DNA of 64,000 nucleotides from a virus: IMG/VR virus record IMGVR_UViG_3300043411_001118, positions 39,808 to 103,807 of that record, one strand, 5' to 3'. Within the stretch, counting starts at the first letter, position 1, and each line of letters opens with the position of its first letter. This document shows positions 1,190 to 63,777 of the stretch, piece after piece. The notes beneath the pieces were generated by a model that ran no database searches, had not been told where the DNA came from, and was given only the letters and a program-made list of their open reading frames with translations. Both the position numbers and the translations under genes were made by a program.

Positions 1190-2572
1190 TTACAAAGTAA
1201 CTAGTTCCCAGTCTGGTTTACGAACATTGATTTCTGATGTGTGGAAATATAATTCCAATGCAGCCATCAATTCATAATCCTTCTCTGTTCCACCAACGCG
1301 CTCCAATTCAATATCTCCAAGAAGTGTTTCGAATGTTGGATGAAAATCGTCCTTGGTCAATTCCGACACAGATTCAACATCCCTGTTAGAAATTTTCATC
1401 TTCCCGCCATAGCGATACTTGCAATATCGATCAAAGTATTGAAGATTTTTTCCAGATAATACCGGAACATTATTAACAGCGAATCGAGAATACAAATGAT
1501 TGGCCTCAATGTTTTTTAGAGAAACTAAGTGCTGTATGTTGTTTCGATGTATCGCCTCATGTAATGCATCGATTCCCTCAAACGGAAGTTTGTAAATGTG
1601 AGCCTCTACATCACAATCAATTGGTGGCCAAAAATTTCTAGTGTTCATTTCAGAAAATTCTTCACATGCCACAGCCGCAAGCATTCCTATTTCTTCTGTT
1701 GGTGTGTATGTATCATCAACATAAAATTGAGACATGGCACGATTGAAATAGAATACTGAATTCTTCCCTTCTCCAGCTTGGTACTTGTTTAAATTAATCC
1801 AAAGTGCGTAATTTTTATCTCCACACAAATATGCAAATTGAGACACGTTAACAACATCATCTAATCTATTTGTCGATGAATCTTTCCAGACCGGAAAGAC
1901 CCTCTTAACAATTGATCCTGGTTCTTCTAAGAGTCTTGGTTCGTAAGCAACATAATTTCGAATATCTGCGCCGTAAGTTTCGGCCAAATATTTTGCAAGT
2001 TTGATTGTTAAATTAACATCGTCCCTGGACTCATGCGTTTGATCTCCGGTCATTAGACCGAATTTCGAACAAAGATTTTCCAGTTTCAATGTCGTTTTCT
2101 GATCGATGATATCAATCTTATCGAGGAATTTTTGTTCACATGTTGCGAGACGTTGCGCCATATGTAACAAGTCTTTACATTGAACCGCCTTCCCCCAATA
2201 TGGAGAAATGCCATTACGAATCATACATGTTCTTAAATATTTGATATCGAATTTATTTGAGTTATACCCAATCAATCGAACTGGTTCTCCTGAGCTATCG
2301 GCCCTCTCAGAAATTCCTCTAACAAACCTTTCAATCTTAACCATGGCTTCAACCTCTGTCATTGCATATGGATCGCTTTGATGATCCATAACATTAATGC
2401 GGTTGATTTTGATTGCCTTTGGTTTCGGAAGAACCAATCGATTTAATTTGATTGAAGATGAAAGAGTTTCGAGAACTTCCCAAGTTTCATCAACTAAAGT
2501 GAAACAAAAATTTAGAATTTGGCCAGTAGTTGCAAGATCTGTGGTTTCCAGATCGTAAAAAATTGATTTCAT
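1190..2572 (-). CDS. Exodeoxyribonuclease I-like DEDDh exonuclease
   Basis: The 460-aa protein has the DnaQ-fold DEDDh residues: D7 and E9 in FYDLETTDL, D109 in GYNSNKFDIKYL, and H180 with D184/D185 in HESRDDVNL. Total length and the long C-terminal half containing VPVLSGKNLQYF match E. coli ExoI (475 aa, a 3'-5' ssDNA exonuclease) rather than the shorter T4 DexA. A role in trimming single strands during recombination, or in host DNA degradation, is inferred. It is first in a tight run with the membrane peptide and RNase H, suggesting co-transcription. Confidence 0.8.
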   Translation of the reverse strand: MKSIFYDLETTDLATTGQILNFCFTLVDETWEVLETLSSSIKLNRLVLPKPKAIKINRINVMDHQSDPYAMTEVEAMVKIERFVRGISERADSSGEPVRLIGYNSNKFDIKYLRTCMIRNGISPYWGKAVQCKDLLHMAQRLATCEQKFLDKIDIIDQKTTLKLENLCSKFGLMTGDQTHESRDDVNLTIKLAKYLAETYGADIRNYVAYEPRLLEEPGSIVKRVFPVWKDSSTNRLDDVVNVSQFAYLCGDKNYALWINLNKYQAGEGKNSVFYFNRAMSQFYVDDTYTPTEEIGMLAAVACEEFSEMNTRNFWPPIDCDVEAHIYKLPFEGIDALHEAIHRNNIQHLVSLKNIEANHLYSRFAVNNVPVLSGKNLQYFDRYCKYRYGGKMKISNRDVESVSELTKDDFHPTFETLLGDIELERVGGTEKDYELMAALELYFHTSEINVRKPDWELVTL

Positions 2573-2589
2573 TTCTACTCCGAGAAAAT

Positions 2590-2847
2590 TTAATCAATTC
2601 TGACACAATAGTATTTGTCTGTATAGATATTGCCCCATGGCTTTAAAATTACACTAGAATCGTCCGGGGTAATCTTTTCAAACCGGACAGACGAATTTAT
2701 AAAATCGTGACCCACATAAGTCACCTTGTCTTTACAATAATCATCATGACTCATCTGGTGATATAAATGGTACTTCTCCCCGACAATCATCTTCGATTCG
2801 GTTTCTTTGTGGGCTTCAAACTCTTGTTTGGTTATTGGTTCGCTCAT
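2590..2847 (-). CDS. Hypothetical protein, 85 aa
   Basis: ATG start 3 bases after the upstream stop; the ribosome site is weak. The protein begins MSEPITKQEFEAHKETESK and has a compact beta-rich C-terminal part (DKVTYVGHDFINSSVRFEKI) ending YYCVRID. I do not recognise a family. It lies in a run of short genes between the divergent promoter region at 3.3 kb and the ExoI-like gene. Confidence 0.6.
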   Translation of the reverse strand: MSEPITKQEFEAHKETESKMIVGEKYHLYHQMSHDDYCKDKVTYVGHDFINSSVRFEKITPDDSSVILKPWGNIYTDKYYCVRID

Positions 2848-2850
2848 GAT

Positions 2851-3138
2851 TTATTTGGACCTCTTCTTAGGTTTGGGACGGTCTGCCAGATTCATTTCTT
2901 TCTCAAAGAATTTTAAAAAATCTACGTCGAGTGGTTTTTGTGGCCATCTCGAAATGTTAGAAATATAATTTGTTCCCATGCATGGAGAGATCACATCAAT
3001 TATCAAAGAGATTGGCGTATGTCTAAAATTAAGACTGAGTGTTCTAGTAATTCCGTGATTAACCGAAATTTCCACACTGTCCAGTAGATACACGTCAAAC
3101 GTTTTCTTCTTCCATTTTAATGTTCTGATTTTCCACAT
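2851..3138 (-). CDS. Hypothetical protein, 95 aa
   Basis: I place the start at the ATG at 3136-3138 (MWKIRTLKWKKKTFDV), because its ATG overlaps the TAA of the upstream gene in the arrangement TAATG and GGTGA precedes it. A longer frame from a TTG at 3228 would overlap that upstream gene almost entirely. The protein is basic with a KPKKRSK tail. No family recognised; probably translationally coupled to its neighbour. Confidence 0.6.
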   Translation of the reverse strand: MWKIRTLKWKKKTFDVYLLDSVEISVNHGITRTLSLNFRHTPISLIIDVISPCMGTNYISNISRWPQKPLDVDFLKFFEKEMNLADRPKPKKRSK

Positions 3139-3317: not shown

Positions 3318-3362
3318 TATGACCCTTGATGGTTATTACTTTACCCATTTAGAATTCTCGCT

Positions 3363-3391
3363 TATCTTACCAAGTATATAATGACTGTCAA
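3363..3391 (-). promoter_or_regulatory. Candidate sigma70-type promoter for the 3317-to-left small-gene run
   Basis: On the minus strand TTGACA (3386-3391) is followed after 16 bases by TAAGAT. It precedes the first leftward gene after the divergent methylase, where a new transcription start is needed. Confidence 0.45.
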
Positions 3392-3409
3392 GAATCGATT
3401 TTATTAAAA

Positions 3410-5177: not shown

Positions 5178-5183
5178 ATGAAT

Positions 5184-5965: not shown

Positions 5966-6569
5966 TTGGTTTTATGATATTTTGGTGGAGATACTTGCAC
6001 AAATAGTATGCATCAATTAAATCGTCCGTTGGATTAGTTTTCTTCAATCCTTCAGTTCCGAGTAGTATACCTAATTTGATGCCAGTTTGCTCCAAAAAGG
6101 ATTCATAAATTTGATCTTTTTTTGCATTCCCCTTTCCAGTAGCAAATTTTTTTAGTGTGCCAGGAGAGATTGCGGAATATTTTATTCTTGGATGATTTTT
6201 GTAAAATTTGTGTTTAAGAACTCCACCATTTTCTCCGATATGAAATCCGGCACCCCTTGATCCATAGGAGTAATCCTCTAATAAGATTACAGATTGTGGA
6301 AGGATTTTGGACATTGCCCAGGATGACAAATCATCAAATCTTTTCTCGCTGTCATTAAACAATGGAGCCAATGTTCCAATAATATTTTTTTCGTAAACTC
6401 CAGCCTTACTTTTCTGTGTGGTATAGAAATTGAATATGCAAGTCTCGTACTTGAAATCTAACCACAGAGGATGGGAACAGATCGCAGGACTTGTCATCGA
6501 CAAGTCAATTCCAACAACGTTATAATAAATATCATCAATACCAAAGTCTAAACTTCGATTCGTCTTCAA
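5949..6569 (-). CDS. RuvC-like Holliday-junction resolvase family protein
   Basis: The RNase H-fold acidic residues are visible: D22 in VVGIDLSMTSP, the Glu in VILLEDYSYGSRG, and Asp residues in PTDDLIDAYYL at the C-terminus, with the intervening ISPGTLKKFATGKGNAKKDQ that typifies RuvC-like proteins. T4 uses gp49 (endonuclease VII) for this job, and no gp49 homologue is visible in this window, so this protein may resolve replication intermediates before packaging (inference). The start is a TTG at 6567-6569 that overlaps the TGA of the zinc protein upstream; no later ATG would keep motif I. Confidence 0.72.
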   Translation of the reverse strand: MKTNRSLDFGIDDIYYNVVGIDLSMTSPAICSHPLWLDFKYETCIFNFYTTQKSKAGVYEKNIIGTLAPLFNDSEKRFDDLSSWAMSKILPQSVILLEDYSYGSRGAGFHIGENGGVLKHKFYKNHPRIKYSAISPGTLKKFATGKGNAKKDQIYESFLEQTGIKLGILLGTEGLKKTNPTDDLIDAYYLCKYLHQNIIKPNEKSS

Positions 6570-6931: not shown

Positions 6932-9202
6932 CTAATTCAATGGTTGTTTATTAAAATCAACCGGACATGCCCCACCATCACACTTCACATGAGAAAAATC
7001 TAAGTCTTCCTTCTCTTCTCTAATTATTGCCCTAGAAATTTCTTCGTATTGAGCCTTAGTAATTGGTTCTTCTGGTTGATATTCATATGCGGTCATATCT
7101 GCTTGTGGCATGACCGAACAACACTTAATTTTTTTCTGATGTAAGTACAACATCCGTTTAAATTCTGCATAAGAAACTAATTCTGGACGATACTTAAGAG
7201 TATAAGAAATCTGATTTCCGTATTGTTGTTCTTGTTGAACCCCATTTTCATCTATCCCATCTATCCAATATTTTTCTCCGAGAACCAACCATTGATATTG
7301 CTCTCCTGGTGTAGCATCTCCTGCCATAACCAACCTATCCTCCATCCCCAATGACGCAATTGTTGGACAAGTCGGAAACCCGATAATAACGGTTCCTTGA
7401 TAAGTTTTTAATTCTCTTGTTGGATACCCAGATTTTTTATACGTCTCGACCAAAGAATCATCCGAACGAAACTGCACCCATCGTAAATAATAACTCATTG
7501 CGGGAAGGTGCCAGCCTTCAGTAAGACCAAAAATTTTCGATGTAGTACCGGCTGGCTTGATGGTTGTCATCGTATGTGGAATATTTCGTCCAAGAATTTT
7601 TGAATATTTTTCGGACTCATCTTTTACTGCATGGTTAAATCTATTGAGCGTTAACCAAAAATCTTTTGATTTCTTTTCATCGATTAAATCTCTAAAACCA
7701 TAACCAAAAAATTTCCATGCGAATTCGTGAATACCTGTAATACCAACTCCAATCCGATTTGTTCGATCTACTTCTTTCTTGTATAAAAAATCCATTAGAT
7801 TTGTTCTGATGAGCGCCCGTGTAGTTGCGCGAAACGCATCTTCTGCTTCATCTAACGTATCGGCATGAAATGGAACAACATCAGCTATTGTGCAATAGGC
7901 ACCAAGCATGTTTAGAGCCACTTCACCACATGGGTTAGTGATCATTACATTTTTTTTCTTCTTTGCTCTCTTTGCCAGTTTACTCATCAGTATTTGAGTA
8001 TCATCATTAAGCTGATATTTTTTACTTCCAACGTAATCGCCCCGATTCAAATCTTCCCATCCAGACAAATTTTGAGCCAACTTATCTTGATTAATAATCC
8101 CCGGTTCTCCTGTTCCATCTGCATAAGAACAGAGTGTTAATAATTCATGAACCTTTCTTGCATGAATTGCTAATTCGGATTTGTATTTCGAGTCTTTCTT
8201 TTTGAGTGATAGTAAATCCCAATATTCTTTATCGACCGTAACGCTATTATTTGAAGACCACAAAAAACTGAACAAGGACGATTGTTTTCTGAGATTAATT
8301 ATTTTTTCTAAATCCGCGCCGATAAATTCTATCGGACGCTTTATTTGAATAAAGTCTAAAATTGTTTTGTCTCTCCAATTTTTTGTGGACATCCGGGCTG
8401 CGCGTCTCGCACCACCAACCAATACACACTCCGCGAAATAATGATCAATGAACAGTGCTTGTTTCCATGCCGACAGGCCAGCGCCTTTTAATGATGCTGC
8501 CTTTTGAAAAGCGTTCATCAATGGAACGGGACCACTCGCAGGACGATTTTGCATCCCACCAATCAAAGAACCTCTGCACCTAACTTTTGAAAAATCCAAG
8601 ATCAGCATTTTATCTCGGTGAATTTTTTCGAACGCCGAATTTTCCCAAATTTCTAATGCCTTAGCCCAACCTTCTCGACTATCTGGAACCTCGAACCAAA
8701 GAATGTCCTTTCCGTTTCCGTATTTGTGTTTAGCATCCCTAGCACTTTCATGTGCTGAAAAATCGAAATCTTTGTGCGTTTCGTCTAAAACACATCTAAT
8801 CGTTGGAGCATTATCCCAATTCACAACAATAACATCATCATCATATGCACGACCCACACCCGACCCATTTAAAAGCAAATAAAATAATAAAAATGATGTT
8901 GGGGCAGTAGCACAATTGGTAAAAACCTCTCCATTTCTTAGTGGCTGATTAATATCTCCATGTTGTAAGTGTCTGCCCGATAACAGAATAGTTCCCTTAG
9001 CAATGTGTTGCTCTAAAATATTCCCCTCTTGTTCCCCACGATTCTCATCAGGATCTAATAATGAATTTCCTAATGCAACACGCTTTGCAACATCCCCCCA
9101 AGATTCCCTTTCCCCATTTTCTTTAATTCTTAATATTGTTCTTTCAGCAACAGCTTGACCCATACCAGAGTCTAATTCTCTAACAAATATTTTATTGGAC
9201 AT
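6932..9202 (-). CDS. nrdJ: Adenosylcobalamin-dependent class II ribonucleotide reductase, monomeric type
   Basis: The 756-aa protein has the RNR core: TNCATAPTS (C97), the NPCGE loop (423-427, C425) with the thiyl-radical cysteine, and C-terminal redox cysteines in CDGGACP near residue 745. Size and these segments match the monomeric B12-dependent enzyme of Lactobacillus leichmannii and aquatic phages rather than the NrdA/NrdB pair of T4. It would make deoxynucleotides (by family, from triphosphates) for phage DNA, and needs cobalamin from the host. No thioredoxin or NrdB is visible nearby. The ATG is 73 bases from the next gene, which may hold a promoter. Confidence 0.9.
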   Translation of the reverse strand: MSNKIFVRELDSGMGQAVAERTILRIKENGERESWGDVAKRVALGNSLLDPDENRGEQEGNILEQHIAKGTILLSGRHLQHGDINQPLRNGEVFTNCATAPTSFLLFYLLLNGSGVGRAYDDDVIVVNWDNAPTIRCVLDETHKDFDFSAHESARDAKHKYGNGKDILWFEVPDSREGWAKALEIWENSAFEKIHRDKMLILDFSKVRCRGSLIGGMQNRPASGPVPLMNAFQKAASLKGAGLSAWKQALFIDHYFAECVLVGGARRAARMSTKNWRDKTILDFIQIKRPIEFIGADLEKIINLRKQSSLFSFLWSSNNSVTVDKEYWDLLSLKKKDSKYKSELAIHARKVHELLTLCSYADGTGEPGIINQDKLAQNLSGWEDLNRGDYVGSKKYQLNDDTQILMSKLAKRAKKKKNVMITNPCGEVALNMLGAYCTIADVVPFHADTLDEAEDAFRATTRALIRTNLMDFLYKKEVDRTNRIGVGITGIHEFAWKFFGYGFRDLIDEKKSKDFWLTLNRFNHAVKDESEKYSKILGRNIPHTMTTIKPAGTTSKIFGLTEGWHLPAMSYYLRWVQFRSDDSLVETYKKSGYPTRELKTYQGTVIIGFPTCPTIASLGMEDRLVMAGDATPGEQYQWLVLGEKYWIDGIDENGVQQEQQYGNQISYTLKYRPELVSYAEFKRMLYLHQKKIKCCSVMPQADMTAYEYQPEEPITKAQYEEISRAIIREEKEDLDFSHVKCDGGACPVDFNKQPLN

Positions 9203-10253: not shown

Positions 10254-11279
10254 CTAGCACCGCTTCCACATTTTAAACTTAGCTAACGCCAATGCCCCAG
10301 AGAATGTGTTGTCATCAATTATTTTGTGAACCTCTTGAGAGGATTTCCCAGATAAAACCATGTCATTGATATCCTTATCAACAATCGTCCTTGGCCATAC
10401 CACCACATATCCCCCAGACTTAATGACCTGTTCCTGATTTTTACAGACCTCAAAATTCCTTGGCTGATTGTCAAACACATACACCGGATCTTCTATTTTG
10501 ATTCCTGTCTCATCCTCAAAAGTTTTGAGCTTCTGTTTTAGAGAAGCATTCATTGCAGCTAGAGCATTTGGGAGAAATAAAGAATCAATTGGACCCTCAA
10601 CCACGTATGTTTTTTTGTTTGGTGTCCAAGTATCAATCCCATACAACATAGCATCGTCATCGAGTTTTGTTGTGATATAACGTAGTACATTTGGATCTGT
10701 TGAAAGTGTGCGCCCCTGGATCGCAACAACCCCACCAGACTTATTAAAAACGGGAATAACTATTCTCGACTCTACATTTCGTTCTTTGTATCTTGTGGGA
10801 AATGTCGTATTAACCAATCCCCAGAAATCGTCCGTGTAATATAATCTGTCATATTTTTCAATTGGAATTTTTCTTCCATCCAAATACTTTCGCGCCGGAT
10901 GCTCAACATCTAATTTTGAAATCAATGTTGAACCAACAAATTTTTTCTCAACATCTTTCTTAACTGGTCGAATTAATTTTTTCTGAGTCGGCCTCTGTGG
11001 ATTGACCTTATTTTTATGAAGTTCGAGGATGTACTCTCGATGTAACGATGGATCGATATCCTTCAAGAAATTATAAAACGATTTTGCAATCCCACAATTA
11101 TGACAATAGAAATATATCTCCTGATTTTTTCCAAGGAAATATCCGCGAGTTTTTCTCTTACTCTTTTTTGAATCTCCACAAAATGGACAAGAACAAACCC
11201 AGAGTCCAACATTTTTCTGTTTAAAATTTCTTAATTGATTCGAAACGAATCTTAGATATTGAACCTCAAGATAATACAT
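10254..11279 (-). CDS. 61: DNA primase (gp61-like)
   Basis: The N-terminal zinc-binding domain has CSCPFCGD and, about 25 residues on, FYCHNCG. The TOPRIM region follows: VVEGPIDSLFLPN near residue 225 and VFDNQPRN further on, with DKDINDMV supplying acidic metal ligands. This is the T4 gp61 architecture; it primes lagging strands with the gp41 helicase encoded at 22562. Length (341 aa) equals T4 gp61 closely. ATG start 5 bases after the preceding stop. Confidence 0.9.
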   Translation of the reverse strand: MYYLEVQYLRFVSNQLRNFKQKNVGLWVCSCPFCGDSKKSKRKTRGYFLGKNQEIYFYCHNCGIAKSFYNFLKDIDPSLHREYILELHKNKVNPQRPTQKKLIRPVKKDVEKKFVGSTLISKLDVEHPARKYLDGRKIPIEKYDRLYYTDDFWGLVNTTFPTRYKERNVESRIVIPVFNKSGGVVAIQGRTLSTDPNVLRYITTKLDDDAMLYGIDTWTPNKKTYVVEGPIDSLFLPNALAAMNASLKQKLKTFEDETGIKIEDPVYVFDNQPRNFEVCKNQEQVIKSGGYVVVWPRTIVDKDINDMVLSGKSSQEVHKIIDDNTFSGALALAKFKMWKRC

Positions 11280-11575: not shown

Positions 11576-11881
11576 CTAAGGTCTATAACCTATATTATAA
11601 TACGACTTACATGCCCTAACAATAGCTGATTGTTCCTCAGAAAATCTTTTAATATCGTCCATGTTTAAAGAGAAGTTTTTATAGGACTCTGGACTCATTG
11701 ATATCCAGACCGCATCTTTTGAATCGACGAAAACCTTATATTCGACAGACCTAGCTGTGATTGGTTTTGGATCTTCGAATACAAATGGGAGTCTCGCAAC
11801 CCTAGAAACAACAATTTCAATCGGCTTAGAACACCCGACTAAGATCAGCAAAATCAGAAAAATACTTCTTGGTAGCGTCAT
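11576..11881 (-). CDS. Outer-membrane spanin lipoprotein (o-spanin, Rz1-like)
   Basis: The first 17 residues (MTLPRSIFLILLILVGC) end in a lipobox, so lipidation at C17 is expected. The mature part is small (84 aa), proline-containing (PFVFEDPKP) and has ARSVEYKVF, similar to o-spanins of tailed phages. The gene starts inside the preceding i-spanin frame, overlapping it by 56 bases, the classical nested/overlapping spanin layout. It would join the i-spanin across the periplasm to fuse inner and outer membranes at lysis. Confidence 0.68.
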   Translation of the reverse strand: MTLPRSIFLILLILVGCSKPIEIVVSRVARLPFVFEDPKPITARSVEYKVFVDSKDAVWISMSPESYKNFSLNMDDIKRFSEEQSAIVRACKSYYNIGYRP

Positions 11882-12203: not shown

Positions 12204-12435
12204 CTTTGGATGGATCTATAAGTCCTTGAATATACTCAAGAAGTACAGAAGAATTGCTCATCTCTCCCCAGGACGATTTCTCGCCTCCGATCTTCACACA
12301 CTCCCTATTACAAAAATCTTGAGCGTTTTTTAAAATGAAGTTGGCGCAGGATGTGTATGCCTCGATCAAATTTGGATCGAGCTTCTGAACAGATTCATAC
12401 GAAAATTTCCTAGCTTCTAGACCAACTGCACTCAT
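12193..12435 (-). CDS. Hypothetical protein, 80 aa
   Basis: ATG start overlapping the deformylase stop (ATGA). Three cysteines (CANFILKNAQDFCNREC) sit in predicted helices. No family recognised. Tight coupling with deformylase and spanins indicates a shared transcript. Confidence 0.55.
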   Translation of the reverse strand: MSAVGLEARKFSYESVQKLDPNLIEAYTSCANFILKNAQDFCNRECVKIGGEKSSWGEMSNSSVLLEYIQGLIDPSKDEV

Positions 12436-13130
12436 GGATTCACCAATTGATATCTAACATTTTTTACTTTTCTTGGAATGAGATATTGTGGACCAGTCTT
12501 TTTAAACCATCTTCGAAAAATATCTTTCTTAAGATTGCTCAACCGATCAATGAATAACGTTCCAATCAAATGATCCATTTCGTGCTGAACACAACACGCC
12601 GCCTTTCCGGTGAAGGTTTCTGTTTTTTCTTCACCTGTTCTAGTCTGATATTTTAACGTCACACTATCAAATCTGTTTACCTTTTCAGACCACCCATGAA
12701 ATGACAAACATCCCTCAATGGAAATGATCTCTCCGCTTGTATCAACAAATGATGGATTGATAAATTCTCTTGCGTCTGTGAAATTATCTGAAACATCCAT
12801 CACAAACATGCTCATGTTAAGTCCGACCTGAACCGCCGCAACGCCATAGCCGCCGTATGCATACATTGTGTTTTTCATTCGGTCTAGGCGAATTGCAACA
12901 TCTTCATCAAAGATTGTTACTTTATTTGCAATCGTCCTGAGTGGACCCACTCCCAATTGAGAATTTAACTCCTTACTTGTCAGAGTCAAAATCTTATATA
13001 ACTCAACAACGTCTCTTTCATCTGTTGTTAATTTTGGAGTCTCTATTGGAGTCTCTATTGGAGTCTCTATTGGAGTCTCTATTGGAGTCTCTATTGGAGT
13101 CTCTATTGGAGTCACGGCATTTTCTTGCAT
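12432..13130 (-). CDS. def: Peptide deformylase with repeat-built N-terminal linker
   Basis: All three deformylase motifs are present: GYGVAAVQ (94-101), EGCLS (139-143) with the metal Cys, and HEMDH (183-187). It removes formyl groups from nascent proteins and may favour phage protein synthesis, as proposed for aquatic phage deformylases. The enzyme core begins near residue 34. Before it lies PIET repeated six times, encoded by a perfect 12-base tandem repeat, which ordinary deformylases lack. The C-terminus is extended and basic. Confidence 0.9.
   Translation of the reverse strand: MQENAVTPIETPIETPIETPIETPIETPIETPKLTTDERDVVELYKILTLTSKELNSQLGVGPLRTIANKVTIFDEDVAIRLDRMKNTMYAYGGYGVAAVQVGLNMSMFVMDVSDNFTDAREFINPSFVDTSGEIISIEGCLSFHGWSEKVNRFDSVTLKYQTRTGEEKTETFTGKAACCVQHEMDHLIGTLFIDRLSNLKKDIFRRWFKKTGPQYLIPRKVKNVRYQLVNP
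13036..13107 (-). repeat. Six perfect copies of a 12-base tandem repeat
   Basis: The unit GGAGTCTCTATT (plus strand) occurs six times without a mismatch, plus a partial seventh copy. It encodes PIET repeats in the deformylase N-terminus. Being a multiple of three, copy-number change by slippage would keep the frame. Confidence 0.95.
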
Positions 13131-14579: not shown

Positions 14580-15011
14580 TTAGTTATAAGCAAACTCCAT
14601 TCCGTATTCGTGTAATAGTGGTTCCAATACCGATTTCAGATGTGGATTGAAACAGTATATAGGTATGTTAAACTTCAGCGCCCAACGGATTTCTGTGGCC
14701 ATTTGAAATGTAATTTCATCTCCGGCCAACCACAACTCATCAAAAAATCCTTTCTCAAAATATACATAATTCATTTCAACAGCTTTTTGAAGTTCTCCTG
14801 CATGTGCTTCATCAACTAAACGGTATGACATGTAGTATGGGGTTATTGGATTAACGAACGGATAATTTTTTATAATGTGGTGAACGAGATTTTCGATTTT
14901 GATCAAGTTGCCGTCTAGGTTATCTCCGATAGTTGGATGAGAAATGTAGGCAACGAACCGGGACGATTTGACTTGATCGTAGAGATAACTTTTATTCTTA
15001 GCTTTACTCAT
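14580..15011 (-). CDS. DUF4406/nucleoside deoxyribosyltransferase-like protein
   Basis: ATG at 15009-15011 is preferred over an upstream TTG at 15029. The protein has the Rossmann-like pattern VAYISHPTIGD, NYPFVNPITPYYMS, a central FFDELWLAGDE and EIRWALKFNIPIYCFNP, typical of phage DUF4406-type proteins related to nucleoside 2-deoxyribosyltransferases. A nucleotide-related role is only an inference. It sits just upstream of the LpxR-like gene and probably shares its transcript. Confidence 0.6.
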   Translation of the reverse strand: MSKAKNKSYLYDQVKSSRFVAYISHPTIGDNLDGNLIKIENLVHHIIKNYPFVNPITPYYMSYRLVDEAHAGELQKAVEMNYVYFEKGFFDELWLAGDEITFQMATEIRWALKFNIPIYCFNPHLKSVLEPLLHEYGMEFAYN

Positions 15012-17400: not shown

Positions 17401-18159
17401 TTATTGAATGGAGCTAATTAGCTTTCTGGCACTAACAATTTCAAAAAAGGTTCTACCTATGATAGAATTCAACTTATCCAGTCTGAACAGGGTATCTCCC
17501 CAGATTGGTCTATAATGTAGACAGTTCTCCGATGGAACAGCTAACAATTGACCTGTCGTTCTCATCGTCCCTCGACCATCTCCCATCCGTAAGGGAGAAT
17601 CGTCCTGGTCCAATTGCATCAATACGTCCATCAATTCGATTGGAGTCTTACTCATCGACATCGATATTTCTGGAATTTTTATATCATCTCGATTAGAAAT
17701 GACTGTTGACGATGACCTTGATAACTCTTTAACAGCCGATGAATATACACCATCTATATTACTGCCATCTAACACAAATGCTTTCTCGGAATTCATCACC
17801 AAAACATTTCCTGTGATCTCTTGTTCCTTTAAAATCTCAATTGACTCTTCTGGAGTTGATGCATATAAAGCTTTTCTGACTCTCAGACCCTCCGGTGAAT
17901 TGTATTTTCTTTCTTCTCGATTCGCCCGTCTAATATCGGATATCTCATTTTCGATATCGATTCTTGGACAAACCAAAACAACTAAACCGTGTTCGTTTAA
18001 TCCTTCGGAGAATCGACTGACCTCATCCCAAAGGAACAAACGTTCGATATCATTTCGAAAACTCTTTCTGATTCTGATCCTTGGCTTATAATTACAGTCT
18101 CGATTCTTCGCCGCGACAAATCCAACACCATTAAAATATTTGCAAACTATAGTTGACAT
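17401..18159 (-). CDS. Ntn-hydrolase-like protein (acyltransferase/C45-like)
   Basis: Begins MSTIVCKYFNGVGFVAAKNRDCNY and continues with WDEVSRFSEGLNEHGLVVL, GNVLVMNSEKAFVLDG and TVISNRDD. This order resembles the N-terminal-nucleophile fold of C45/TANGO2-like proteins that occur in some aquatic T4-like phages. If so C6 may be the nucleophile after trimming. Substrate unknown. It shares one base with the neighbouring HExxH gene (TAATG-type overlap), so it belongs to that operon. Confidence 0.5.
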   Translation of the reverse strand: MSTIVCKYFNGVGFVAAKNRDCNYKPRIRIRKSFRNDIERLFLWDEVSRFSEGLNEHGLVVLVCPRIDIENEISDIRRANREERKYNSPEGLRVRKALYASTPEESIEILKEQEITGNVLVMNSEKAFVLDGSNIDGVYSSAVKELSRSSSTVISNRDDIKIPEISMSMSKTPIELMDVLMQLDQDDSPLRMGDGRGTMRTTGQLLAVPSENCLHYRPIWGDTLFRLDKLNSIIGRTFFEIVSARKLISSIQ

Positions 18160-18935
18160 TATCCAAACCTTTTCTGATAAGCATTAAAAAGCGAGAACTG
18201 TTTTTTCACCATAGATGCCCAAGATTTTGCTCGATTTTGGAGTGAGTGATCTCCCTCGATGAAAGTTGCGTAATATGCATTAATCAAATATGAAACGACA
18301 TCTGCTGAGTATGTGTCATCGGGAAGATTGTATTTTTTAATCGCCGCCTGTGATACATCCCAATATGCATTTATCCGCTTATCAATGTCATCAGGAAGAA
18401 TGAGTCGCGGAACATCATCCACCAAATAATCGATAAACCCATAAAATTTAGTAACTGGAACACCACTAAATTTCAGAACTATCCCCTGTACCCACGGCTG
18501 AAATTCTATGTCTTGAAAAATATATTTAGCACCATCCAACCCACGTCCACCTGTCTCATAATTAAGAGTTTTCCAAGGCGTTAGTTTTTGTCTGGAGTGT
18601 ATGAATTCGTGGATAAATGTTGATAGTAGGGTTTGTGCAGTTCTGGGCTTATTCCATATCGAATCGTGAACCGTAGGAACTCCCAAATAAATTTCATCTG
18701 GTGTCCTGAATTCTCCGTTAATTGATCCCGATATACGAAACACAACCTCCATTTGCGGCCCAAATTGTTTCGTTTCGTTTGAAAGTTGATCGGCCATTGA
18801 TACCAGATCAACATTACCCTTCGCCCCCATGTCACGAATATTTTTTGAAATAATTTCTTTGGACGATTGATAGAGTTTGTAAAACTTATCAATGAACGAT
18901 TCATTCAGAAACGATTTAAAGGAACGCCCTGACAT
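18159..18935 (-). CDS. HExxH metallopeptidase-like protein with capsid-targeting-like N-terminus (paralogue A)
   Basis: The central TFIHEFIHSRQ gives a zincin HExxH with a candidate third ligand in the conserved YIFQDIEFQPWVQG (Glu). The N-terminus, MSGRSFKSFLNE then SF, resembles the T4 internal-protein targeting peptide MKTYQEFIAE, with LNE fitting the gp21 cleavage rule (L/I)xE. It is a diverged tandem copy of the next gene, sharing the HEFIHSRQ, FQPWxQG and final RFG segments. A packaged, injected protease is inferred, not shown. Confidence 0.6.
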   Translation of the reverse strand: MSGRSFKSFLNESFIDKFYKLYQSSKEIISKNIRDMGAKGNVDLVSMADQLSNETKQFGPQMEVVFRISGSINGEFRTPDEIYLGVPTVHDSIWNKPRTAQTLLSTFIHEFIHSRQKLTPWKTLNYETGGRGLDGAKYIFQDIEFQPWVQGIVLKFSGVPVTKFYGFIDYLVDDVPRLILPDDIDKRINAYWDVSQAAIKKYNLPDDTYSADVVSYLINAYYATFIEGDHSLQNRAKSWASMVKKQFSLFNAYQKRFG

Positions 18936-47254: not shown

Positions 47255-47748
47255 GTAGATTCTCTCCAGCTATAACGTAAGTATTTAAATGATACAGTAG
47301 AAATCGGGAACGGTAAATCTGACACGTCATTCTGAAGTTCTACACTAGTGATCGATGTCGGGAATAATGATTTATAATCGACGATGATATTAGAACGGCG
47401 TTTGTTTGATAGGATGGTCAGGGTTGCGTCCGAGAAAACCGTATTAGCGTCTTTTCTCAATTTATACTGGTTGTTATCTTCCCCGAACCCGTTCTCCCAA
47501 ATCCAGTCCCGAATTTTAAACCAGTTGACCAGATCCTCATCTACCTTAAAAGTGACAACCAAATCGTCCTGAGTAGGGCTATCCCCGGTCTCCGGAATCG
47601 GTACATTCTGGTTTGGAATCATTACTGGATTGATCGATACACCAGGCAAATTAACCCGCTGAACGAAGTACGGAAGCTCAGGCAGAATAGCAATTGATAG
47701 GGTATAGGCTGCACCCTGGAGATAGTTTAAATTGGCTGGAACACTCAT
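47251..47748 (-). CDS. Tail-tube-fold virion protein
   Basis: 165 aa. YFVQRVNLPGVSI, NQNVPIPETGDSPTQDDLVVTFKVDEDLVNWFKIRDWI and FSDATLTIL are typical of the tail-tube-like proteins of T4-like aquatic phages (tube initiator or terminator, or a baseplate hub piece). Distinct from the main tube protein gp19 at 59504. No ribosome site is evident at the ATG. Confidence 0.65.
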   Translation of the reverse strand: MSVPANLNYLQGAAYTLSIAILPELPYFVQRVNLPGVSINPVMIPNQNVPIPETGDSPTQDDLVVTFKVDEDLVNWFKIRDWIWENGFGEDNNQYKLRKDANTVFSDATLTILSNKRRSNIIVDYKSLFPTSITSVELQNDVSDLPFPISTVSFKYLRYSWREST

Positions 47749-47950: not shown

Positions 47951-49047
47951 TATACACTAGCCTCCAATTGTTGGTTTTGAACTATAACTTCAGAAATCTT
48001 CGGTCGGGTTCCAAAGTAAATTCCAGTCTCTTTACCTTTAACGGTTATCTTCCCGGAAATCTTGTCTCCGACATTCAAATCCCATGCTTCTTTGATTGTC
48101 GTATTGAACCAAATCTTCCCATACTTTTCGTCGAGGATTGTTACCGCCCTTGTGTTGCCCCATTGTCCCTCGTTTGTGACCGCCTTCAAAACAGTCCCAG
48201 TGAAATCGATTTTTGTTTTTGGCTCAACTTCGATTCGAACAAAGGATTTGATTTTATAGTGTCTATCAACTTCTGCTAGAGCGATTGCTGTTACAATCAG
48301 TGTTGTATCCTTAGTTCTGAATCGTCCTAGTGCAATCTGACAATTATGCCAGAAGTTCGACCATTCAGCTTTTGACTTTTCTTCGACAAATTGTTCGGTT
48401 CGAGTCAAAATTTCGTCGTTTGTTTCTGACTTGTCCAAGGACGATTGAATCTCTTTTATATTCTCATCAGGACCACACATAAGATTTCTGACTATCTCGA
48501 TTGTTGGTTGTTGAAATGTTTCGAATGATTTTTTCCCAGAAACATATCCGTATTTTCTGACCACCCCAAGAGTGATTCTTGCTATGTCAGTGTTTCTAAG
48601 TTGGCCACTGTCGCCGCCGTATTCGTAATCTTCCTCGTTTATTTGTTCTTCGAAATTTTTAAACAAGTTCAGAAGTTTTTTGACTCGTGTTTCGCAGTTC
48701 AAGTTTTTCGCGCACGTTCCACCGACCTGAATTTGTTCTTTAGTTTCTCCTAATTCAAGAACGAAAATTTTAACACGATTATGTTTGACTCCGCATTTTT
48801 GGCAGAGTGTATAATCTACTGTCTCTAAAGATTCTTTAGTCCACCCAAATTTTGTGGTGAAGGAATTTGCCATCCCATCCTTTTCGGCCACAGCCAAAAT
48901 ACTTGGAAGATTTTCTGGTTGTTTGGCAACCACCGTGATCCACGCGACATTTCCGGTTTCATTACTGACCGTCAAAACTAATTCATTTTTCTCGGCCAAG
49001 ATTTTCGCGGCCTCTAAAGAATCTCTGTAAATTTGATACTGTTTCAT
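47950..49047 (-). CDS. Zinc-knuckle/OB-fold protein, 365 aa
   Basis: ATG at 49045-49047 with GGAGGG 3 bases before; a longer frame to 49098 overlaps the promoter and is rejected. CQKCGVKHNRVKIFVLEL then QVGGTCAKNL is a treble-clef-like zinc site found in plasmid and phage proteins of unknown role; the C-terminal 100 residues (IDFTGTVLKAVTNEGQWG, then DLNVGDKISGKITVKGKE) look like an OB domain. It probably binds nucleic acid. Early promoter at 49069. Confidence 0.55.
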   Translation of the reverse strand: MKQYQIYRDSLEAAKILAEKNELVLTVSNETGNVAWITVVAKQPENLPSILAVAEKDGMANSFTTKFGWTKESLETVDYTLCQKCGVKHNRVKIFVLELGETKEQIQVGGTCAKNLNCETRVKKLLNLFKNFEEQINEEDYEYGGDSGQLRNTDIARITLGVVRKYGYVSGKKSFETFQQPTIEIVRNLMCGPDENIKEIQSSLDKSETNDEILTRTEQFVEEKSKAEWSNFWHNCQIALGRFRTKDTTLIVTAIALAEVDRHYKIKSFVRIEVEPKTKIDFTGTVLKAVTNEGQWGNTRAVTILDEKYGKIWFNTTIKEAWDLNVGDKISGKITVKGKETGIYFGTRPKISEVIVQNQQLEASV

Positions 49048-50255: not shown

Positions 50256-50333
50256 TTGCCCAAATCGTCCCTGGACAATCTCGGCAAGCTCAACCATCCC
50301 ACATATTAACTATCGACACATCTCCAAAAAACT

Positions 50334-51642: not shown

Positions 51643-51664
51643 ACGGGACGATTTCTCGTCCCGT
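51643..51664 (-). terminator. Terminator of gene 23
   Basis: ACGGGACGA / TCGTCCCGT, a perfect 9-bp stem with loop TTTC, followed on the minus strand by TTTCTATTT. It lies 27 bases after the gp23 stop. Confidence 0.7.
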
Positions 51665-54662: not shown

Positions 54663-55340
54663 TTAAAATTTCCCCATTCGATGTTTTCCCATTAAAATAT
54701 CAGCGAAAATCTTCAAATAGGTTGCGTTCTTTTTTTCCTCGTTCATCGTCAAAGATGCGGCATTTATGGTCTTTTTTAGCTTCTTTGCTTCTGTTTCTGT
54801 GAGGATGCCGTTTTCAAAAAGGTATTCTTTACATTCGAGAATTCCATTAACAAATGCTTCTGGTGCAGATGGATCAGAAACGATGTCAATTGTTGATAAC
54901 CACAAATCTTCCTGGACGATATCGACTCCATTTTCATTTGCTCGAAGTGATCCCAATGCCCTGGATGAAACACCAATCTGTACATTGTCTTTCAGAAGTG
55001 CTTTGACAATATTTCCTACAGGAGTATCTAAAATTTTTGCTTTACCAATGTAATTCGCGCCCTCTTTGTGGAGAGAAACAATCTTGTGTGACGCTCGTTC
55101 GTAATTAATTCGTGGGCTGTCTGGATGATTTAATTCTCCGACCGCTAAGTTAGTTAGAATTTTTTCTTGGACGAATTGTTGAACGGCTTTATCCATGATT
55201 TTTTCTGGATAAATTCTTCCGTTTCGATTTTGAACATCGGCCTGAAGGAAAATTCCCTCGATGTAATAACTGACTTCTCCACCTTCGTTTGCTTCAACGA
55301 GTGGTTTAACAGAATCAATACGTTCAACAATCAGTTTCAC
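54663..55340 (-). CDS. 21: Prohead protease (gp21)
   Basis: 225 aa like T4 gp21 (212). VGELNHPDSPRINYERASH carries the catalytic His and QIGVSSRALGSL the catalytic Ser (T4 S140 region), as in the U9/herpes-type prohead proteases. It cleaves gp23, gp22 and internal proteins at (L/I)xE sites during head maturation. Located directly between its substrates' genes and the portal block. Confidence 0.92.
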   Translation of the reverse strand: MKLIVERIDSVKPLVEANEGGEVSYYIEGIFLQADVQNRNGRIYPEKIMDKAVQQFVQEKILTNLAVGELNHPDSPRINYERASHKIVSLHKEGANYIGKAKILDTPVGNIVKALLKDNVQIGVSSRALGSLRANENGVDIVQEDLWLSTIDIVSDPSAPEAFVNGILECKEYLFENGILTETEAKKLKKTINAASLTMNEEKKNATYLKIFADILMGKHRMGKF

Positions 55341-56324: not shown

Positions 56325-59300
56325 TTATTGTTTATCATCGTCAAGGTCTTCATCGATCACATCTAAAAACTCGAAGTCTCTATCAGAAACGGAAATCTCC
56401 TTTTCGTCGGATTCTTCCGACTCATCAGAATCGTCCTGGAAATCTTCATCCGATTCCTTCGATTCTGGACCACTTTCAACAGTCTCTTGATCACCAGCAA
56501 ACCCAAGTTCTTTTGGTGAATCGTCCTGATCCAATTGTTCAGTATTTTGATCTCCACCAATTTCTTCTAATTCTTCCTCAGTCAATTTGAAAAAATTCTT
56601 CTTAACGAATTCTTTTGAAATGTATCCTTCGGTGATAGGATTTTCGACACCAGCTTCTTTGGCTAAGGTAAGTCTTTCTCGCCAAATCTCAGCCTCTTTT
56701 AATTCTGAAAAATACGAGTCGGTTGCCCACTCATAAACAATTTTCGATTCATTCTCTTCCCAATCTTCCTCACTAACGATATTTTTTAATATGGATTGAA
56801 TTCGTAGTGGTTGATTAAAAAATTGTGTTGCGAATGAATTTCTTAGTTGATTGATGAAGCGCGAAAATTTTAATTCCTCTCTAGTAATTTCTGATGCTCG
56901 ACCAATTGAGAATCCATTTTCTGGATCGAGTCTCATTGTCGGAACGTTTAATGAGTTGTAGAATTTTTTCTTGAAGTAGTTTACGTCTTCTATTTCTCCG
57001 AGATTTGAATTGTTTGTGAATACTCCTACATCTAGAGCGAAGTTATGAAATGAGTGATATTGCTCATCAACATCTATCGTTAATGTTCCTACTTCGATTT
57101 TTTGTGGTAGAAATTCAATGCTCACAATTTTGTGATTATATAATTCTACTTCTTTTCTAAATTGTTTCCATCCAGAGTAACCAAATTTCTTCACAAGTTT
57201 GTAAAGGTGGGTGTGTTTAAATTGGTCGTTATTCCAATTTGCACAATGAGTATCTTTGTTGATATCAATGAAGTGTTGTAAAATGATTTTGTTTTGATTT
57301 AATTCTGTTGTGACATCATGAATCGTTGTGTGGTGTGTGGTTTTTCCAGAACAAATTTTAACGACAGCATCTAAAATGGTTTTGTCTAGAACGATGCGCT
57401 GATGTTCAAAAACCAAGTCTTTAAATTTCTTATCAGAAAATCTAGTTTTGCCTCGGATCGAATGTGCGGCACAAAGTTCTTTGTATTTTTCAGTACCCTT
57501 AAACTTACTCCATCCATTTCGTATTGATTTAGAAAATTCTTTGCGAAATTTTGGATCTGTCTTTAAGAGATCCTGGGTACGTGCATTTCCTAGTTTTCCA
57601 CTTTTCTTACATTTGATACGATGTTGTTCTAAATCGTTTCCGGTTAGATTTTGATAGTGTTTCTTAATTCCTTTTTGCATTTTTTGGCGAATACTCTTTC
57701 GTTCTTTTGTAGAAAGAGAAGCCCACCAAGACGAGGATCGTTTAGAAAGTTCCTTAGTATATTGCTCCCACATAACAGGATCGGATTTCATTTTTTCGAA
57801 TGCCAATCGAGCTAATTCTGTGGCTTGTTCTTGTTGTTCTTTAGTCTTAAATCCTAAAGATCCATGATACAACATATGATCTGTTGTGTTCATCCATCGA
57901 AGATTTTCTGGGCTATTATTAAATCGATTAAAATCTAAGTGGTGAACAACATGCTTAGATAATTTACTCGTCTCTGGATCGAAAACCATTTCATAAATTT
58001 CACCTTTTGTGCGGAAATATTCGGCAACCATTCGATGTGTAGAAACCCATTTTTTGTTATGGTTTTGATAGATCCATTCGTAATTATTTTTACTTGAACG
58101 AATTGGTGCATGTTTGGTATTGTGGGCAATTAAGCTTTCACCAACCAAAAGATCCTTTGCCTCAACACTTCCCTTTCCGATAATTGGAAATTTGTGATCG
58201 GGAGTACAGATAATTTCTTTACCATTGTCGAGTGTGAGTTTAAGAACGTTGGCACTCTTATGAGTCACACCAGCCCAACTAATTTTTCCAGGGACGATCT
58301 CACCTGTTTCTGGGTTAGTGCTATACGACCAATTTAATTTTCCTTGTTTATACTCATCAGCTAGATCTCGAATTGTTAACGTTCGTCCATCAAGCAGAGG
58401 AACTTTCGTATCCATAGCAAGACAACCACCAGGGAGAGTGTCGATTTCCGTTGCGGTACTTCCACCCTTTCGCGGAATCCAAAAATCTTCTGTCATGGCC
58501 TGAATTCTTCGTTGTGAATTGACACCACCATCAGATGAATCGTAAGAAATTTTATTTTTGAACTTAGTCATCATTTCGCGCATGTGTGATTCGACATGGA
58601 TATTTTGCATATCTCCAATATCGATATAAAACACACGTCTTTCCGGCGCTCTTGAGAGTCGATAGATAACAACCGAATCTTCCATCTCTCGGAGTTTAGT
58701 CCAAGGTCGGTATGCTTTATCTAAGTGAGAAATAATTTTCTGTGCGCGAACATCTAACTTTCCTGAGTGAACATAGATGATCGAATTGACATCCAGGATG
58801 GTTCCCGATGTGGACATTGTGTTAGTTGAAGATGGTGTATTCAGTAGTCCAACAGGATTGAAAACGAAATATTCTCTTTCGGTTTTATATACAGATACTC
58901 CAGTGCTAGAAACGTCTTTTGAAACTTCTCTAATTTTTGCAATTTGTCTTGGATCAATGAATCGAATTTCTTGAATTCCTTCTTTGATGTTGTCTTGGTT
59001 TACGACAATATGAAAATAACTTTTTCCGTCGATGTAGTTTGTTCTGAACAGTAGGTGCGCGTCTCGATTGTAATTTACTAGTCCACAAATATATTCAAAT
59101 TCTTCAGTAAGAATTTTTTTAACATCGTCACTAAAATTTGTTTTGTCTAAATTTATTGAGGTTGGACCCTCGTTATCTTCATGGACGATTGCATCGTTAA
59201 CGACTTCAGAAATGGCCCGATCACAATCGGCATCCATTGACATCATTCGATATCGAGAAATTAATTCTGCCTCTGTTCCGTAAATTCCAGACTCTAGAAG

Positions 59301-60108: not shown

Positions 60109-60128
60109 TTGAAAATCGTTCTCATTTA

Positions 60129-62018
60129 TTAAAATTGTCCAACCACTTCTGAGAATGAAACGCCCGAACCAACCGCTACGAAGTTCAATCGAATGAAGTT
60201 AATCGAACGACTTGGCTTCAAGTAAATGTCGCCAACGAATTCGTTTCGATCAATGACATCGGATGTGTTGTTGGTGTTATCGCAAACAACATAGAAGTCA
60301 TATAATCCACGCTGAGACTTGACATCTCTCAAGTATGGTTCAACCATGTGTCTGAATTGCGAACGAGTGAAATCATCGTTCAATTCGAACAACATATTGT
60401 GAGCCGCACGAGCAATTGCTTTCTCAAGGATGATAAACAATCTTCGAACATTGATTCGATCAAACGCGCTTGGTTTGCCAAGCATCGTCTTATCACCAAA
60501 TAAAATTGTTCCCTGTCCAGGAAGAACCACAACAGGGTTAATGTCTGCTTGGTAGAGATCTTCTTGTTCAGCTTTAGTTGCTTGGTACGCCAACTTAATA
60601 CAATTCTTGATTCCACCGCGCTCAATTCCCGCTGGAGAAAACCAAGGTTGTCTGTTCATATCAGTCTGAACAATACATCCCGCAACACATGGGTTACATG
60701 GAACCCATCGGTATGTGTCGTTGTATCGGTCTAAACAATAAAACCAGTTAGAATCAATGATCGAATAAGAACTAGACGATACAGAGTTTCTAAAAGATTT
60801 TGCATCCGTTACTTCAGCACCGGCATTGTTTACAACATCTGCTTGCTCTGGAGATAGACAAACGACAAGATCTTTTCTGACTTCGGCGATATCATCAATC
60901 AATGCGATTGCGACTGTAGCAGAAGCAACCCCACCAATTAGAATGGACACATCTACAGAATCGTCCAGGAACAATTCATATCCTTCGATTTTATCTGCAT
61001 CATCTACTGTACTGTTCGATTCAACACCACCAGTCAATTTACTGACTACGGGAATGTTAACCGCTGTTAGAGTTGTTCCGTTAGTGGTCGAACCCCAGTT
61101 TGTTCCAGCAGAATCATGATCCATCCACCAAACATATTCAGAAAGTCTGTTTAGAACTTCCGAATAAAAATTAGATGTTCCATCATCATTCTTTGCACTT
61201 CCACAAAGAGAGAGGAAAGGATATTTTTCGAGAATCTGTCCTTGAACACCAGTCCAAAGTCCACCTTCGTCCGAGACAACTACGTGACACTCATCCGATA
61301 CCATCGAACGAGCAGCCGCATAATCAGATGTTCCTGGAGCAGCAGAAAACTGTTCCGAGAATTCCCATAATGCTGTGCAAGTTGCTCCAGCCAAGTCAAC
61401 AGCAAATGCAGATTTTAGTGTTGCTGTAGTTGCTCCACCAATCGCCGACACCAAACGTCTGTTTCCAGATGCATCAATGAGGTAATCACCAACAGTTAAT
61501 GCCGTGTTAAATGCGGTTCCGATTCCAGTAACAGCCGTTCCAGTAGTCGAAACGGTTCCAGCCAATGCTCTAGAGTTAAATGCTGTAGCAGTAGAACAGA
61601 TCGAAACCTTTAAAGAATTTCCTAGCGTTCCGGCATATTTTCCCGCCCAATTTCCAACCGCACCCTGACCAGCCGCATAACTATTGGTGTAGTGTTCTTC
61701 GTTTCGAATCAAAAGACCCGCGCCGTTTGCAGTCGAGTTTTTTGCATTTGCAGCATCGACAACGCGAACTAGTCGAAGTTTGTTTGAGTAAGAAAGAAAG
61801 TTAGCAGCGTTTAAAAATGATACACCACTATCATTGTCTGGTTTACCGAATTTTTTTACTAAAGTTTTTTCACTGTCGATAGTGACAACTTCTAGAACTG
61901 GCCCCCATTTGAATGCACCAACATATCCAGCCGCACTGACACTGATAGTAGGAATTCTATTTGTTAAATCGATTTCGGAGACTTGAACTCCTGGCCTTAA
62001 TTGAAAACTTGAACCCAT
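60129..62018 (-). CDS. 18: Contractile tail sheath protein (gp18)
   Basis: 629 aa (T4: 659). RPGVQVSEIDLTNRIPTISVS at the N-terminus, GAFKWGPVLEVVTI, and the C-terminal sheath signature VNVRRLFIILEKAIARAAHNMLFELND, then YDFYVVCDNTNNTSDVID and EFVGDIYLKPSRSINFI. The N- and C-terminal arms make the interconnecting mesh of the sheath. The central domain (residues about 140-340, Ala/Gly/Thr-rich) is variable. Confidence 0.95.
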   Translation of the reverse strand: MGSSFQLRPGVQVSEIDLTNRIPTISVSAAGYVGAFKWGPVLEVVTIDSEKTLVKKFGKPDNDSGVSFLNAANFLSYSNKLRLVRVVDAANAKNSTANGAGLLIRNEEHYTNSYAAGQGAVGNWAGKYAGTLGNSLKVSICSTATAFNSRALAGTVSTTGTAVTGIGTAFNTALTVGDYLIDASGNRRLVSAIGGATTATLKSAFAVDLAGATCTALWEFSEQFSAAPGTSDYAAARSMVSDECHVVVSDEGGLWTGVQGQILEKYPFLSLCGSAKNDDGTSNFYSEVLNRLSEYVWWMDHDSAGTNWGSTTNGTTLTAVNIPVVSKLTGGVESNSTVDDADKIEGYELFLDDSVDVSILIGGVASATVAIALIDDIAEVRKDLVVCLSPEQADVVNNAGAEVTDAKSFRNSVSSSSYSIIDSNWFYCLDRYNDTYRWVPCNPCVAGCIVQTDMNRQPWFSPAGIERGGIKNCIKLAYQATKAEQEDLYQADINPVVVLPGQGTILFGDKTMLGKPSAFDRINVRRLFIILEKAIARAAHNMLFELNDDFTRSQFRHMVEPYLRDVKSQRGLYDFYVVCDNTNNTSDVIDRNEFVGDIYLKPSRSINFIRLNFVAVGSGVSFSEVVGQF

Positions 62019-62056
62019 TTGTATTTCTCCAAAGGAAAATTCACTTGTTGCTTGAT

Positions 62057-62064
62057 TTATTTAG
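62057..62064 (-). promoter_or_regulatory. Late promoter of gene 18
   Basis: CTAAATAA on the minus strand, 39 bases before the ATG. Confidence 0.6.
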
Positions 62065-62088
62065 GTTTGGGATGATTTGACTTAATTT

Positions 62089-63777
62089 TTAATCAGACTG
62101 AGGATTTACCGGAAACCAAACACACCCATCTGCAACATATGGTTGAGCTTGGTTTGATACCGATCCATCAACATACTCAGAGGAAACTGCAATACATGGG
62201 GTTGCATTCTCTGTTTGTTGCCTTTTATTCTCTCCTACCAGAGAGGATTGAATATTAGTTCCAGAAATTTCTTTGAAATATTTTTGAGTCGAGAACCAAG
62301 AAAAAAGGACCAGACCCATAACCAAATCGTCCGTGGCACCTTTCTGGGCAGCATACCCCTTACCCCGTCTGACAAAGGAAGTTATCTCAGAATATGTGTC
62401 AAAATCCTGGACTATTAAATTATTTTTTTCGACCAGGGTTTGGAAATTTTTACATCCAATTAATTTGACTTGTGTGGTTGTCCTGACCCCAAGTTTTATT
62501 TTAGTTGCAGCATTTCGACCAAATCCTTCGGTGACTTCTTGGCCTTTGGATTGTTTTGTTCCGGTCTTTAGAATATATTCGTACTGTAAATCGTCCGAGA
62601 GAATGTCTGCTACTTGTTTACCAATTGAATTCATTTCGATTAGCACCCATGCATTATTATATCTCCTTGCAACACTTTCGATCACCGTAGGATATTCAAT
62701 TGTCGATATGTTATTGTTTCTATATGTGGCAACTTGTTTGTATGGAATTTGTGTAATGTCAACTACTGAAAGAGCAGAAAAATCTTCTCCAACACCCTCT
62801 CCACTATCAGCCGTTACGACATAGATCGATTTCTCTTTTGGAATTTCATATATTCTTAAATTACCACCATCCTCTAAAGAGATTGGTGTAATGTGAATGA
62901 GTTTTTTAATAACGTGAGACGGTATTAAAGTATTTTTCGCGCCCAAAAATTCGCACTCAAATTCTTGCGCGAACATTTCAGCGGTCATTTTACTAAGCTG
63001 AATTTCTTTCCATTGCTCATCTCGATCTGGATGTTGTGACCAGTGCGCTTCAAATGGAATAAATGCGACACTCTTTCCTGGCAAACTTTTTTTCTTAATT
63101 GCCTCATCCCAAATTTTATAAAACATTTCCATTCCGTTTGTTGTGGAAATAATTATAACCTTGGATGTTGTACCAGATGCAGTTGTTGGAAAAACTGATT
63201 GAAAGAAATCGTGTTGAATTGCTCGATCAACGTGAGCAAATTCATCTAACAGGATACAGTTGTAAGATCCGGATCGTCCAGCATTTCCACTCGTAGAGTC
63301 GGCAATAACAGATGATCCGTTTTCTAATTCAATTCTACTTTTGTTCCATTCGACAATACCCTGTTGTAACCAAAATGGTAAATTTTCATAGGCTCTTGTT
63401 AACCGTCTCAAAACTCCCCGCGCCGAACTTGCTTTGTTCGCTAATACAGCAACGGAATATGCCGGATTAAAAATAATCATCCATAGAAGATAGGAAACAA
63501 CTGTTGTTGATTTTCCCATCTGTCTAGGAATTTTTGCTACGACAAATCGATTGTCATTAATGATCCTGATTAGATCTTCTTGAAACTCATAGAGATCAAA
63601 ATTGATCAAACCACGATCAAGAGAAATTATTTTTACATATTTTTTTATGAAGTAGATCGGGTCTTCCGCGCACTTCATCAATTCGCGGATCTGTTCTTCC
63701 GTAAAATCGATCTTTACTCCAGCGTTCTTTAAACGCTTATTATTTTTGTAGTAAAGTGGGGATGCCCTTGAGAACAT
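62089..63777 (-). CDS. 17: Large terminase, DNA-packaging motor and nuclease (gp17)
   Basis: 562 aa. Walker A IPRQMGKST (83-91), Walker B CILLDEFAHVD, coupling motif IIISTTNG, and the C-terminal RNase H-fold nuclease with VVTADSGEGVGEDFS, WVLIEMNSIG and a late Asp in GATDDLVMGLVLFSW. ATPase drives headful packaging through gp20. It overlaps the small terminase gene by 38 bases, as genes 16/17 do in T4. Confidence 0.96.
   Translation of the reverse strand: MFSRASPLYYKNNKRLKNAGVKIDFTEEQIRELMKCAEDPIYFIKKYVKIISLDRGLINFDLYEFQEDLIRIINDNRFVVAKIPRQMGKSTTVVSYLLWMIIFNPAYSVAVLANKASSARGVLRRLTRAYENLPFWLQQGIVEWNKSRIELENGSSVIADSTSGNAGRSGSYNCILLDEFAHVDRAIQHDFFQSVFPTTASGTTSKVIIISTTNGMEMFYKIWDEAIKKKSLPGKSVAFIPFEAHWSQHPDRDEQWKEIQLSKMTAEMFAQEFECEFLGAKNTLIPSHVIKKLIHITPISLEDGGNLRIYEIPKEKSIYVVTADSGEGVGEDFSALSVVDITQIPYKQVATYRNNNISTIEYPTVIESVARRYNNAWVLIEMNSIGKQVADILSDDLQYEYILKTGTKQSKGQEVTEGFGRNAATKIKLGVRTTTQVKLIGCKNFQTLVEKNNLIVQDFDTYSEITSFVRRGKGYAAQKGATDDLVMGLVLFSWFSTQKYFKEISGTNIQSSLVGENKRQQTENATPCIAVSSEYVDGSVSNQAQPYVADGCVWFPVNPQSD

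Follow-up and report, generated by a model that had tools for sequence, protein, structure and literature searches.

What keeps one 8-base word, GGACGATT, recurring on both strands of a phage genome, and what might read it? The question arises from a window of 64,000 nucleotides, bases 39,808-103,807 of the 103,807-bp virus record IMGVR_UViG_3300043411_001118, an incomplete contig whose gene content points to an uncultured T4-like (Kyanoviridae-like) phage. A first-pass annotation of the window had described the core of the word, GGACGAT, as over-represented and had proposed a DNA-level, orientation-neutral signal, neither codon bias nor an RNA motif. Tests of six reading registers and of synonymous permission strongly support that proposal: in this lineage, strong selection or drive works on the word as a site in the DNA itself.

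An excess independent of codon usage

The window carries 45 copies of GGACGAT (21 on the plus strand, 24 on the minus), 35 of them within GGACGATT, where an order-3 Markov model predicts 8.4 copies of the 7-mer and 2.7 of the 8-mer. The first-pass annotation had counted at least 35 copies where roughly five were expected. Every position it listed is real, that given as 1345 being one base off (1346), and its count holds as a lower bound, ten copies having been overlooked (at 7185, 8541, 11654, 17564, 20939, 29288, 31764, 39936, 40580, and 63273); its expectation was slightly low, but the excess stands, as does the near-equal use of the two orientations. Over the whole contig, GGACGAT occurs 76 times versus 13.8 expected and GGACGATT 60 times (25 plus, 35 minus) versus 4.3 under the same model, an excess of about 14-fold and a density of ~1 per 1.7 kb (0.58/kb, or 578/Mb; all per-megabase densities were computed with rounded genome sizes). 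The longer 11-mer CMRGGACGATT is present in 28 copies (270/Mb), and the reversed control word occurs once in the whole contig. Markov counting of k-mers, a check suggested with the original observation, places the word first among the over-represented 6-, 7-, and 8-mers of the contig, and the enrichment reaches the rest of the genome, both contig halves showing it. Words one base away from the core occur without depletion, giving no sign that the word arose by conversion from one neighboring word.

Genes were called as simple picks of open reading frames. When synonymous codons were shuffled within each gene, 6.1 ± 2.4 in-gene copies were expected (maximum 13 in 200 shuffles) versus the 54 seen, which rules out a codon-shuffled background yielding ~30 copies by chance. 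All six reading registers (sense and antisense in three phases) are enriched, each 7-20 fold, in line with the variable codon phase noted earlier, and the encoded peptides vary with register: DD, TI, and GR in sense; SS, NRP, and IV in antisense. Codon or dipeptide bias is ruled out as a source by these two results. The encoded proteins permit the word synonymously at 120 in-gene places, 50 of which carry it (42%). By comparison, 200 random words of equal GC filled a mean of 2.7% of their own permitted places (maximum 10.5%), and 60 permutations of the word's letters a mean of 3.3%, the best being GATGGATC at 27%. After codon shuffling, the word is the top 8-mer of the phage genome. A further, weaker word, TGATCGAA/TTCGATCA, also lies above codon shuffling in the coding DNA of the contig (22 copies versus 4.7).

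The flanks lengthen the site to ~16 bp, T.G..CMR-GGACGATT-B. Columns off background are -8 (T; p=1e-6), -6 (G; p=2e-5), -4 and -3 (C), -2 (A/C), -1 (A/G), +7 (T), and +8 (not A); no other column within ~25 bp of the core departs clearly. The flank consensus proposed earlier, near TCCARGGACGATT, was correct and reaches further than described, to the T at -8 and the G at -6. Permitted places carry the core increasingly often as the flank improves, at 1/15, 3/28, 8/28, 14/23, 17/18, and 5/5 for one to six matching positions, a gradient inflated because the flank pattern was partly learned from the same sites that were scored. Even so, 22 of the 23 permitted places whose flanks match five or six of the six positions have the core, so a well-matched flank hardly ever lacks it. 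Such a rise is expected for one extended binding site.

Placement of the sites in a T4-type genome

Spacing along the contig is near random (coefficient of variation 0.88 versus 0.98 ± 0.12 for uniform placement), and the two orientations are intermixed throughout. Copies favor neither the starts nor the ends of genes; 17% of them lie within 50 bp of a gene start versus 16% expected, and a promoter or transcription-factor site was rejected on this ground. Codon bias, promoters, and RNA motifs are all excluded or disfavored as explanations, and what seems to matter is how many sites there are and how much of the genome they cover, rather than where they lie with respect to genes.

In window coordinates, GGACGATT reads on the plus strand at 8276..8283, 8541..8548, 12271..12278, 14961..14968, 18861..18868, 20939..20946, 26116..26123, 31764..31771, 32816..32823, 36008..36015, 38141..38148, 38575..38582, 38669..38676, 40580..40587, 48439..48446, 51646..51653, and 59183..59190. 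On the minus strand it lies at 1345..1352, 2658..2665, 6020..6027, 10383..10390, 10826..10833, 12930..12937, 17598..17605, 25755..25762, 29287..29294, 40213..40220, 47562..47569, 48320..48327, 50263..50270, 56429..56436, 56519..56526, 60959..60966, 62325..62332 (where it codes for part of TDDLV in the terminase), and 62589..62596. The remaining cores end in another base: GGACGAT(A) at 7185..7191 and 54914..54920 (plus) and at 11654..11660, 25732..25738, and 39936..39942 (minus); GGACGAT(G) at 43578..43584 (plus) and at 2018..2024 and 17564..17570 (minus); and GGACGAT(C) at 58292..58298 (plus), within an intein-like insert of the portal gene, and at 63273..63279 (minus).

Translations of the contig read as a T4-type gene set: terminase large subunit, tail sheath, portal, and capsid; gp41 helicase, gp61 primase, clamp, clamp loader, and a DNA polymerase that is split; and UvsX-, gp46-, gp47-, and UvsW-like proteins. 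Pfam confirmed UvsY, RegA, clamp-loader A, and gp59, and PHROGs confirmed clamp and ligase; these family scans covered ~40 contig proteins, and a reader protein could have been missed. The closest named phages are distant (cyanophages, 48% in terminase; Ochrobactrum phage OC, 46% in sheath).

Several features of this genome were observed in passing. The polymerase occupies two open reading frames (25351-26481 and 26768-28276) with a 90-residue frame between them (26509-26781), and the 1042-residue portal gene (56325-59453) seems to contain the intein-like insert (CLAMDTKVPLLDG ... FHNFALDVGVFTNN). Next to the capsid gene, the opposite strand carries an HSP20-like small heat-shock gene (51134-51544), and a free-standing homing-endonuclease-like frame lies at L010:1485-1910 (PHROG 5046; LAGLIDADG-like by eye). 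At the left contig edge, directly after a GGACGATT site, a perfect 12-bp tandem repeat of TACCAACGGAGC runs for 11.4 copies (L009:15-151; contig 15-151). Another 12-bp array, of ~5 copies of TATTGGAGTCTC, spans window positions 13038-13110 and is unrelated to it in sequence.

Search in related phages and bacteria

Conserved density in relatives had been proposed as support for the signal, and the search did not bear this out. Twenty terminase-related records hold 0-2 copies each, and the word was rejected as a conserved T4-like phage signal. No comparable word emerged from the same codon-shuffle test in nine T4-like relatives, nor comparable enrichment from 50 phages sharing the RNR gene. Queries of viral contigs with terminase, capsid, lipoprotein, UvsX, and RNR found distant relatives only (terminase ~45-70%, RNR ≤71% identity), none of them enriched; with kinship this distant, gain and loss of sites are not traceable. 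The remaining fetched loci, pooled over 2.7 Mb, hold 82 copies versus 57 expected. A 17-bp pattern with 14 specified bases hit 85 stretches of viral contigs with one match each, and the 19 full records retrieved from that scan contain 1-5 copies and are not enriched. The enrichment is specific to this lineage among the records compared.

Candidate host genomes, in which a count of the word had also been suggested, gave no comparable enrichment either. We counted ~900 bacteria, with some overlap between sets: 48 mixed genomes, 291 from the phylum of a Bacteriovoracaceae bin, 399 from that of Cognaticolwellia, 118 from that of Saprospiraceae, and 98 from that of Oscillatoria, sampling Bdellovibrionota, Pseudomonadota, Bacteroidota, Cyanobacteriota, and mixed phyla. 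The maxima were ~105/Mb for the 8-mer and ~7/Mb for CMRGGACGATT, versus 578/Mb and 270/Mb in the phage; the 11-mer scans would more easily miss a host word with different flanks, and their best scorers, re-counted with the 8-mer, were unremarkable. The phage also encodes an S8 (subtilisin-like) protease (L010:8027-9484). As a single query for the host, this gene gave no match; as an alignment, it matched many phyla, and its nearest bacterial relatives include several Bdellovibrionota, no more than a weak hint of the host. A literature search for the octamer returned unrelated entries only, among the matches listed, and the octamer is absent from the main text of a Chi-motif survey of Proteobacteria.

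Candidate readers of the word

From sequence, Chi-like, packaging, uptake-type, and protein-site readings look alike, and a Chi-like self signal fits best among known logics. Our tentative first choice is that GGACGATT forms the core of a non-palindromic, ~16-bp recognition site of a putative sequence-specific DNA-binding protein with Chi-type action. We infer a protein reader, together with either a benefit that grows with site number or coverage or spread by biased transfer; the Chi-type action is a guess. An enzyme traveling along phage DNA, whether a host AddAB/RecBCD-type nuclease or a phage end-processing enzyme, would recognize the word and switch from degradation to sparing or recombining. 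Dense copies in both orientations would then give a phage genome better survival or recombination, and the word would be kept or spread near the density allowed by the encoded proteins in this lineage.

Like Chi (GCTGGTGG, read by Escherichia coli RecBCD, and the related AddAB words), the word is short and asymmetric, lies in genes and in phage DNA, is in genome-wide excess beyond composition and codon usage, and would act at the DNA level. Its orientations are mixed, without the co-orientation with replication typical of Chi, a trait of bacterial chromosomes that phages do not necessarily need. It differs in having soft flanks at least 8 bp upstream and no enrichment in any sampled bacterium. 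The T4-type recombination set of the contig (UvsX-, gp46-, and gp47-like proteins; UvsY; gp59) adds support. A Chi-like signal ranks first because it is the established case of phages gaining from a genome-wide asymmetric word: Chi is over-represented 2.3-fold in E. coli, and its median over-representation rises to 4.76 in lambdoid phages that lack recombinases, so selection for words of this kind is within the reach of phages (PMC3784561).

Several observations weigh against a Chi-like signal. A phage that encodes recombination functions of its own may do without host Chi, and the enrichment is nearer that of DNA-uptake words. No RecBCD/AddAB-type enzyme was recognized among the ~40 proteins scanned from this incomplete contig. 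The relatives with a similar terminase lack the word, so the recombination machinery common to T4 phages is not, in itself, the reader, and the ~900 bacteria show no comparable enrichment. The ~14-fold excess and 0.58/kb are far above any Chi figure in the cited study (PMC3784561). Because the excess exceeds those Chi figures, we favor this reading only cautiously.

Next in order, though unlikely, comes a phage-encoded structural DNA-binding protein (an organizer, a packaging or concatemer mark, or a partition or replication-site protein) that would load at the word genome-wide. Orientation-neutral sites with near-random spacing and genome-wide coverage suit such a protein, as do the lineage specificity of the word and an extended site of a length typical of protein binding, but no candidate binding protein was found among the proteins scanned, and saturation to the coding limit exceeds what a loading site needs. 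T4-type packaging is headful and requires no dense site, which counts against a packaging mark. Somewhat less likely again is that the word is the Chi or DNA-uptake word of an unsampled host, carried through selection or long residence. It resembles the DNA uptake sequences of Pasteurellaceae and Neisseriaceae (USS/DUS; for example, Haemophilus and Neisseria), which have an 8-10 bp core with soft flanks and occur at ~1 per kb in both orientations, mostly in coding DNA; here the density is 0.58/kb with flanks from -8 to +8 on both strands. Those sequences belong to the chromosomes of competent bacteria, whereas here only a lytic-type phage is enriched, and the bacterial maxima fall far below the phage densities. 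Selection of host Chi by lambdoid phages provides a precedent (PMC3784561). Another genomic word of 8 bp, the KOPS (FtsK orienting polar sequences) type of polar segregation word, is similarly over-represented but strongly strand-polarized, unlike the mixed orientations here.

Methylation self-marking, in which a phage methyltransferase would modify the word and the mark protect or label phage DNA, favoring more sites, is improbable. The phage has two D12-class adenine methyltransferase genes, a divergent one at 3410-4231 (plus), on the strand opposite nearly all its neighbors, and a canonical one at 21486-22340 (minus), but nothing ties either to the word. The usual targets of D12 enzymes are short palindromes (GATC, for example), and restriction-linked sites are normally avoided, not enriched. 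More improbable still is a decoy, in which hundreds of copies per infected cell would titrate a host DNA-binding defense or regulatory protein: having as many sites as coding allows, with no positional preference, would fit, but a sponge need not cover the genome so evenly, and we know of no such host protein here. Codon or dipeptide bias, paralogous repeats, or an assembly artifact is very improbable as the whole explanation. In its favor, contig positions 1-10,000 hold a cluster of 15 of the 60 copies, some of which fall in small paralogous genes bearing direct repeats; such repeats were rejected as the source, accounting for part of this cluster and not the rest, and the six-register excess, the codon shuffle, and the permitted-site tests refute this reading, as do enrichment in both contig halves and copies in intact, unrelated genes.

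What the word might mean can be put more broadly. It is possible, if doubtful, that GGACGATT is a phage-specific genome identity word, originating in the phage or in an arms race with one host and written in coding DNA to the synonymous limit, which a phage-encoded or defense-related enzyme would read as a label that sets phage DNA apart from any other. Words of this genome-wide kind, Chi and uptake sequences among them, have been described mostly in cells. A phage that fills almost all flank-matched places open to its codons with one word would show that phage DNA, as a substrate, is under strong selection or drive, and an identified reader would open a new phage–host interface in nuclease control, self-recognition, or genome organization.

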